Position numbers and translations under genes: made by a program. From Rhodobacteraceae bacterium HLUCCO07 (lineage in GTDB: Bacteria > Pseudomonadota > Alphaproteobacteria > Rhodobacterales > Rhodobacteraceae): a stretch of 64,000 bases of DNA. This document shows, in pieces, positions 27,227 to 27,972 of the stretch (positions within the stretch are counted from its first letter, which is position 1; each line of letters opens with the position of its first letter). The notes below the pieces were generated by a model, which worked only from the letters and a program-made list of their open reading frames with translations, was not told the DNA's origin and ran no database searches. Location of the stretch: contig LJSU01000021.1 in the NCBI GenBank assembly GCA_001314705.1, positions 1 through 64,000 of the forward strand, read 5' to 3'.

Positions 27227-27255
27227 CTTGCAGCGGCTCGCAAGACTCCCCATAT
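27227..27255 (+). promoter_or_regulatory. Sigma-32 (RpoH) heat-shock promoter for hsp20
   Basis: CTTGCAG, 14 bp, CCCCATAT is a near-perfect RpoH promoter (consensus CTTGAAA-N11-16-CCCCATnT). It predicts a transcript start near 27262, leaving a leader of about 65 nt before the hsp20 ATG. Confidence 0.7.
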
Positions 27256-27293
27256 TTCCTCAGCGGGTCGCCGAAACGGGGCCCGGGATGAAA

Positions 27294-27325
27294 ACACTGT
27301 CGCTTGAATGCGTAAAGGACCGTGT
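27294..27325 (+). promoter_or_regulatory. ROSE-like RNA thermometer hairpin at the hsp20 start
   Basis: ACAC-T-GTC-G-C-TT and AAAGGAC-C-GTGT can fold so that the ribosome site AAAGGA (27314-27319) is paired. The opposing strand has the ROSE hallmark GUCGCUU, with a G-G mismatch and a bulged C facing the AGG, ending 2 nt before the ATG. ROSE elements melt on heating and release translation of small heat-shock genes in rhizobia. Confidence 0.65.
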
Positions 27326-27327
27326 CA

Positions 27328-27741
27328 ATGACGAAACTTTCCCTGGGGTCGGCCCCCTACCTTCTGGGCTTCGAACAGCTGGAGCGCTTGCTCGAACGCA
27401 ATGCCAAATCTGGTAACGAAGGTTATCCTCCCTTCAATATCGAACAGACTTCGGAAAATTCCTATCGGATAACGCTCGCCGTGGCGGGGTTCTCGCAACG
27501 GGATCTGGCGATCACGATTGAGGACCGGCAACTGGTGATCCGCGGTCGCCAACATGACGACAGCGATGGCCGGGTGTTTCTGCATCGCGGCATTGCCGCG
27601 CGACAGTTCCAGCGCAGTTTCGTGCTCGCCGATGGAGTCGAGGTGGGCGAAGCCGTGATGGAAAACGGTCTTCTGCATGTCGATCTGACCCGGGCTGAGC
27701 CCGAGACAGTGGTGCAGACGATCCAGATAAGGAAAGGATAA
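27328..27741 (+). CDS. Small heat-shock protein, Hsp20/IbpA family
   Basis: The ATG at 27328, 8 bp after AAAGGA, is preferred over the GTG at 27322 and gives 137 residues. The alpha-crystallin domain runs from 'PPFNIEQTSENSYRITLAVAGF' to 'ENGLLHVDLTRAEPE'; a C-terminal 'IQIRK' carries the I-x-I motif that links oligomers. It holds unfolded proteins for refolding by DnaK. Sigma-32 promoter and ROSE-like leader upstream, DUF1150 gene 3 bp downstream. Confidence 0.93.
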   Translation: MTKLSLGSAPYLLGFEQLERLLERNAKSGNEGYPPFNIEQTSENSYRITLAVAGFSQRDLAITIEDRQLVIRGRQHDDSDGRVFLHRGIAARQFQRSFVLADGVEVGEAVMENGLLHVDLTRAEPETVVQTIQIRKG

Positions 27742-27744
27742 GTC

Positions 27745-27972
27745 ATGGATACGAAATATGATTTCGGCGCCGGTGAAGAAAACCGCATCGTCTATGTGCG
27801 CAAGGTCGCGGTAAAGGATCTGCCCGAGGAGGTTCAAGCGCAGGCTAGCGGGTTGGAAAGCCTCTACGCGGTACACAGTTCGGATGGCGAACAACTTGCG
27901 CTCGTGCGCGACCGCTCGCTTGCGTTCGTGCTGGCCCGGCAGAACGATCTCGCGCCGGTGACGGTGCACTGA
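27745..27972 (+). CDS. DUF1150 family protein
   Basis: The 75-residue product has the DUF1150 pattern ('RIVYVRKVAVKDLPEEVQAQ', 'LYAVHSSDGEQLALVRDRSLAFVLARQ'). The family is alphaproteobacterial and often directly follows hsp20, suggesting a role in the heat response, but no activity is known. It starts 3 bp after hsp20 with ribosome site GGAAAGGATAAG. Confidence 0.88.
   Translation: MDTKYDFGAGEENRIVYVRKVAVKDLPEEVQAQASGLESLYAVHSSDGEQLALVRDRSLAFVLARQNDLAPVTVH

Follow-up and report, generated by a model that had tools for sequence, protein, structure and literature searches.

The E. coli ibpA leader is a reported RNA thermometer, and the G-bulged anti-Shine-Dalgarno core is a known thermolabile motif, with a G opposite a G beside a bulged C as its known weak point. 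ROSE-type elements are known from alpha- and gamma-proteobacteria (PMC4166951), and short two-hairpin ROSE-like thermometers have been proven for Pseudomonas ibpA (PMC3669281). In the Roseobacter clade, the ibpA and hspD genes of Nautella sp. R11 have been predicted to be preceded by ROSE-like motifs (PMC3230580). We analyzed a window of 64,000 nucleotides from Rhodobacteraceae bacterium HLUCCO07 (contig LJSU01000021.1, positions 1 to 64,000), in which the leader of a small heat shock protein (sHSP) gene, hsp20, is very probably an RNA thermometer of the ROSE type, short and with two hairpins, behind a promoter for a heat-shock sigma factor. The initial annotation had proposed a ROSE-like element here, and comparative evidence from the promoter, the hairpins and the conservation of GUCGCUU bears out that reading despite a low Rfam score.

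The closest parallel is Pseudomonas ibpA (PMC3669281), which likewise has a sigma-32 promoter, an sHSP gene downstream and two hairpins only, the second over the Shine-Dalgarno sequence, in a leader of ~62 nt. This likeness leaves the sequences of hairpin I aside, the two leaders belong to different clades, and function is proven in Pseudomonas whereas the hsp20 leader is known from sequence. The E. coli ibpA leader also sets UCGCU opposite AGGA ahead of an sHSP gene, but it is longer and has more hairpins. In the ROSE-G motif found ahead of ABC transporter genes (PMC12857270), a bulged G faces a G of the Shine-Dalgarno sequence as it does here, although ROSE-G has CUGCU and the present leader has UCGCU and lies before hsp20. 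Nautella sp. R11 belongs to the same larger bacterial group, and as in the present genome a ROSE element is predicted for each of two sHSP genes, a likeness that rests on one sentence of PMC3230580 and does not imply orthology to hsp20.

Heat-shock transcription is indicated by the promoter, whose letters read directly as CTTGCAG (27227-27233), 14 nucleotides, and CCCCATAT (27248-27255) on the forward strand. The TTG of the -35 element CTTG (27227-27230) is present in 139/139 orthologue leaders and its preceding C in 137/139, while the CCATAT at 27250-27255, within the -10 element, is invariant (139/139). The gap from CTTG to CCATAT is 18 to 19 nt in every one of the 139 retrieved orthologue leaders. 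We judged the promoter against the RpoHI logos as described in PMC3441632. In R. sphaeroides, C-37 is over-represented in RpoHI promoters, C-37 and T-9 distinguish RpoHI, and TTG is essential (PMC3441632). Both distinguishing bases occur in the hsp20 promoter, and all 139 leaders combine a TTG -35, a CCATAT-like -10 with A-12 and T-9, and the right spacing. Transcription of hsp20 would, from this motif, depend on RpoH. A scan for sigma-70 promoters and terminators returned nothing. The spacing puts the predicted start near 27264 and gives a leader of ~64 nt. The initial annotation had placed the promoter at its exact coordinates.

The leader folds into two hairpins, both of which comparison establishes. 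Hairpin I (27264-27285) begins at the predicted 5' end and reads CGGGUC, a bulged G, CCG, AAA and CGGGGCCCG in the minimum free energy (MFE) structure. Hairpin II, the putative thermosensor (27294-27325, loop 27306-27314), is part of the MFE structure when the leader is folded up to the start codon. Its outer stem pairs ACAC (27294-27297) with GUGU (27322-27325). Within it, the anti-Shine-Dalgarno strand GUCGCUU (27299-27305) faces AAAGGAC (27314-27320), GUC (27299-27301) pairing with GAC (27318-27320) and UU (27304-27305) with AA (27315-27316), such that the ROSE motif UCGCU (27300-27304) stands opposite the Shine-Dalgarno AGGA (27316-27319) and the predicted fold sequesters it. The helix stops 2 nt short of the ATG (27328-27330). 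The coordinates of this hairpin in the initial annotation are exact. A G-G pair with a bulged C had been proposed as well, and G27302 does lie opposite G27317 with C27303 alongside, but the energy model favors a C27303-G27317 pair with G27302 bulged, a choice that sequence alone cannot settle. The anatomy is that of a ROSE element in each part: a place in the 5' leader of an sHSP gene, whose product has an HSP20 domain (27328-27741); two hairpins, where two to four are required, the last covering the Shine-Dalgarno sequence by comparison and in the MFE structure; and a U(U/C)GCU strand across from AGGA, in which two Gs face each other next to an additional C. Energy folding on its own gives the window a z-score of only -1.07. 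In 131 of 139 cases, shuffling the 5' sequence makes the Shine-Dalgarno sequence more accessible than it is in the real leader.

GUCGCUU is identical in 135 of the 139 retrieved family orthologues, and it faces AAGGAC or a close variant (AAGGAC or AAGGGC in 121/139). On an alignment of 50 leaders, none of 500 shuffles reached the structure on any of five measures, controls with the structure slid along the alignment scored far lower, and RNAalifold recovered both hairpins unprompted. A covariance model built from the leaders (R1), whose seed sequences match by construction and overlap with the loci and genomes scored, matched 99 of 100 orthologue loci at or adjoining the start codon and, at E<=1e-3 with strict filters, 155 of 197 genomes of the order. 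Some members of the order gave no R1 match, and in two divergent family members (G016 and G010) visual inspection found no clear motif; leaders outside the family gave weak matches. The window leader scores 50.4 bits against 20.3 bits for the next best place in its own genome, and this, together with the promoter in 139/139 leaders and GUCGCUU in 135/139, excludes a chance origin of the leader. Two extra weak R1 matches in other genomes (G061 C4 and G205 C22) showed no sHSP gene and were treated as chance.

The two hairpins differ in how they vary. Covariation was tested on a tree built from coding DNA, with 4000 simulations. In hairpin I, pairs 7-34 and 8-33 show 7 and 4 double changes where 0.55 and 0.37 are expected, values as high as which arose in 0/4000 simulations; pairs 6-36 (p 0.002) and 5-37 (p 0.045) covary more weakly, and covariation at pairs 4-38 and 9-32 is not significant in this tree-aware test. 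Hairpin I is the covarying part of the leader judging by these sequences, and the initial annotation overlooked it; compensatory changes there lie well above what the tree leads one to expect. Hairpin II, by comparison, has a nearly invariant core (98.8% paired over 102 aligned matches), too conserved for covariation to be a strong test. Its rare changes nearly all preserve pairing, with G-C to A-U and U-A to C-G compensatory replacements in single lineages (p 0.03 and 0.05). Pairing in the outer stem of hairpin II holds in just ~60% of cells, and this stem therefore differs among lineages; plain column pairing gives it no clear partner because spacing varies.

Formal membership in an Rfam family is another matter. 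The proposed search with the Rfam ROSE models ranked ROSE_3 (RF02523) first. The match covers the full length, keeps register with the ATG and shares the bulged G of hairpin I and UCGCU facing AGGA, but its 15.0 bits (E 0.68) fall far short of the gathering score of 43, so that membership fails; 0/61 relatives reach that score. ROSE (RF00435) and ROSE_2 (RF01832) have no match listed at E<=10 between 27200 and 27400, no sampled class member passes RF00435, and at gathering scores Rfam has no match at the hsp20 leader or in 20 orthologue loci. The leader looks ROSE-like and probably functions as such an element, while lying by score outside the Rfam ROSE families.

As a thermometer, the leader would act as follows. 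At growth temperature, hsp20 mRNA would be scarce given its RpoH promoter, and GUCGCUU in hairpin II would occlude the ribosome-binding site. Upon a heat shock, transcription through RpoH would supply the message, and the helix, weak around the step of G-G and bulged C, would open and let ribosomes start, while hairpin I probably remains folded and aids folding or stability. We infer that the leader places hsp20 translation under heat control; that hairpin II melts in the physiological range and so affects translation would follow from this model. The hairpin could instead be a fixed translational brake, or the target of a small RNA or other factor, that is not temperature-labile, with heat control only transcriptional through RpoH. 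The promoter by itself could provide heat induction, and the predicted stability of the hairpin barely shifts from 25 to 42 degrees, the opening of AGGA rising only from 0.09 to 0.15 in nearest-neighbor folding. The E. coli ibpA leader, however, is equally flat in the same energy model (0.01 to 0.03), for which reason we judge the melting prediction uninformative, and the fact that two facing Gs next to a bulged C are so strictly kept argues for tuned instability; we consider a fixed brake very improbable. We give scarcely any credence to the idea that the start codon is what is sequestered, GUCG pairing with AUGAC at the coding start and the Shine-Dalgarno sequence lying in a loop. That fold is the MFE structure of the window once coding sequence is included, yet its advantage is slight (<1 kcal/mol), its loop-side pairs are unconserved where AAGGAC is conserved, and 38 of 139 relatives start with GUG, mostly with a UCN codon next to it, so that the GUCG-AUGAC pairing is lost.

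In a different kind of alternative, the leader would serve chiefly as the operator of an autoregulatory loop, in which Hsp20 would bind the folded leader and repress translation, with little direct melting by heat, and would be released from it when drawn onto aggregates. In E. coli, autorepression by IbpA acts via the 5' UTR of its mRNA and needs Arg93, and Arg93 and Tyr34 are reported to be conserved in alpha-proteobacterial IbpAs (PMC10474464). The Hsp20 of the window aligns Tyr33 and Arg92 to these residues, with Arg92 present in 139/139 orthologues and the Tyr in 138/139, and hairpin I is conserved beyond the needs of stability alone. Against this, the conserved arginine could have another role in the protein, and the core over the Shine-Dalgarno sequence is of the known thermolabile kind, leaving an operator as the main function distinctly unlikely. 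The two mechanisms can coexist and are not exclusive. Feedback of Hsp20 on its own leader is possible given the kept Arg and Tyr, which do not themselves amount to evidence for it.

Among the aligned leaders, the 5' side of hairpin I is mostly GUUGC or GUCGC and its 3' side GGGC or GGAC, the hairpin II counterparts being GUCGC and GGAC. Hairpin I (27264-27285) and hairpin II (27294-27325) share a core of the form GUYGC/GGRC that includes an extra G, hairpin I having C-G where the sensor has U-A. In sequence, hairpin I looks like a GC-rich duplicate of the sensor hairpin. One may speculate on a family-wide leader with two inputs, in which this GC-rich twin would dock Hsp20 and translation would be set by the melting of hairpin II together with free Hsp20 acting through the invariant arginine; we regard this as rather unlikely, if conceivable.

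The ROSE-type thermometer, our preferred reading, would make such control of a DUF1150-linked sHSP a near-universal trait of a large family of environmental bacteria. In the genomes tested, public RNA models detect none of these leaders, a gap that a model built from them would fill, and both the role of the conserved hairpin I and possible sHSP self-repression outside the gamma-proteobacteria become directly testable. Within the freely readable literature, which excludes a 2005 survey of alpha- and gamma-proteobacteria, our search turned up no account of an element shared across the Rhodobacteraceae.

The gene itself, hsp20 (27328-27741, forward strand), encodes a small heat shock protein of 137 aa with an HSP20 domain (PF00011, E 3.8e-18). 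Directly 3' of it on the same strand lies a DUF1150 gene (27745-27972; PF06620, E 4.6e-24), probably in the same operon. In those family genomes that have DUF1150, its gene stands beside the hsp20 orthologue, and this adjacency, here and in relatives, suggests a linked heat-shock role. DUF465, purE and purK, the last named from its ORF sequence, lie on the other strand and face hsp20. The genome finds its nearest named matches among the Rhodobacteraceae.

A second sHSP gene of the genome is found at G000 C17:63915-64292 on the reverse strand, its IbpA-like protein starting MRNFDLAPLYR. Its leader is longer, has a promoter resembling those of heat-shock genes and ends before the ATG in the hairpin UAUCGCUCAAAGGAGGAU; by its sequence it appears to be ROSE-like too. 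At 20 such loci, in the same genome and 19 relatives, a similar AUCGCU precedes an AGG-containing site, and some give weak ROSE_2 or ROSE_3 matches. Elsewhere in the window, 4292-4365 matches the Rfam L2-Alphaproteobacteria ribosomal protein leader at 58 bits.
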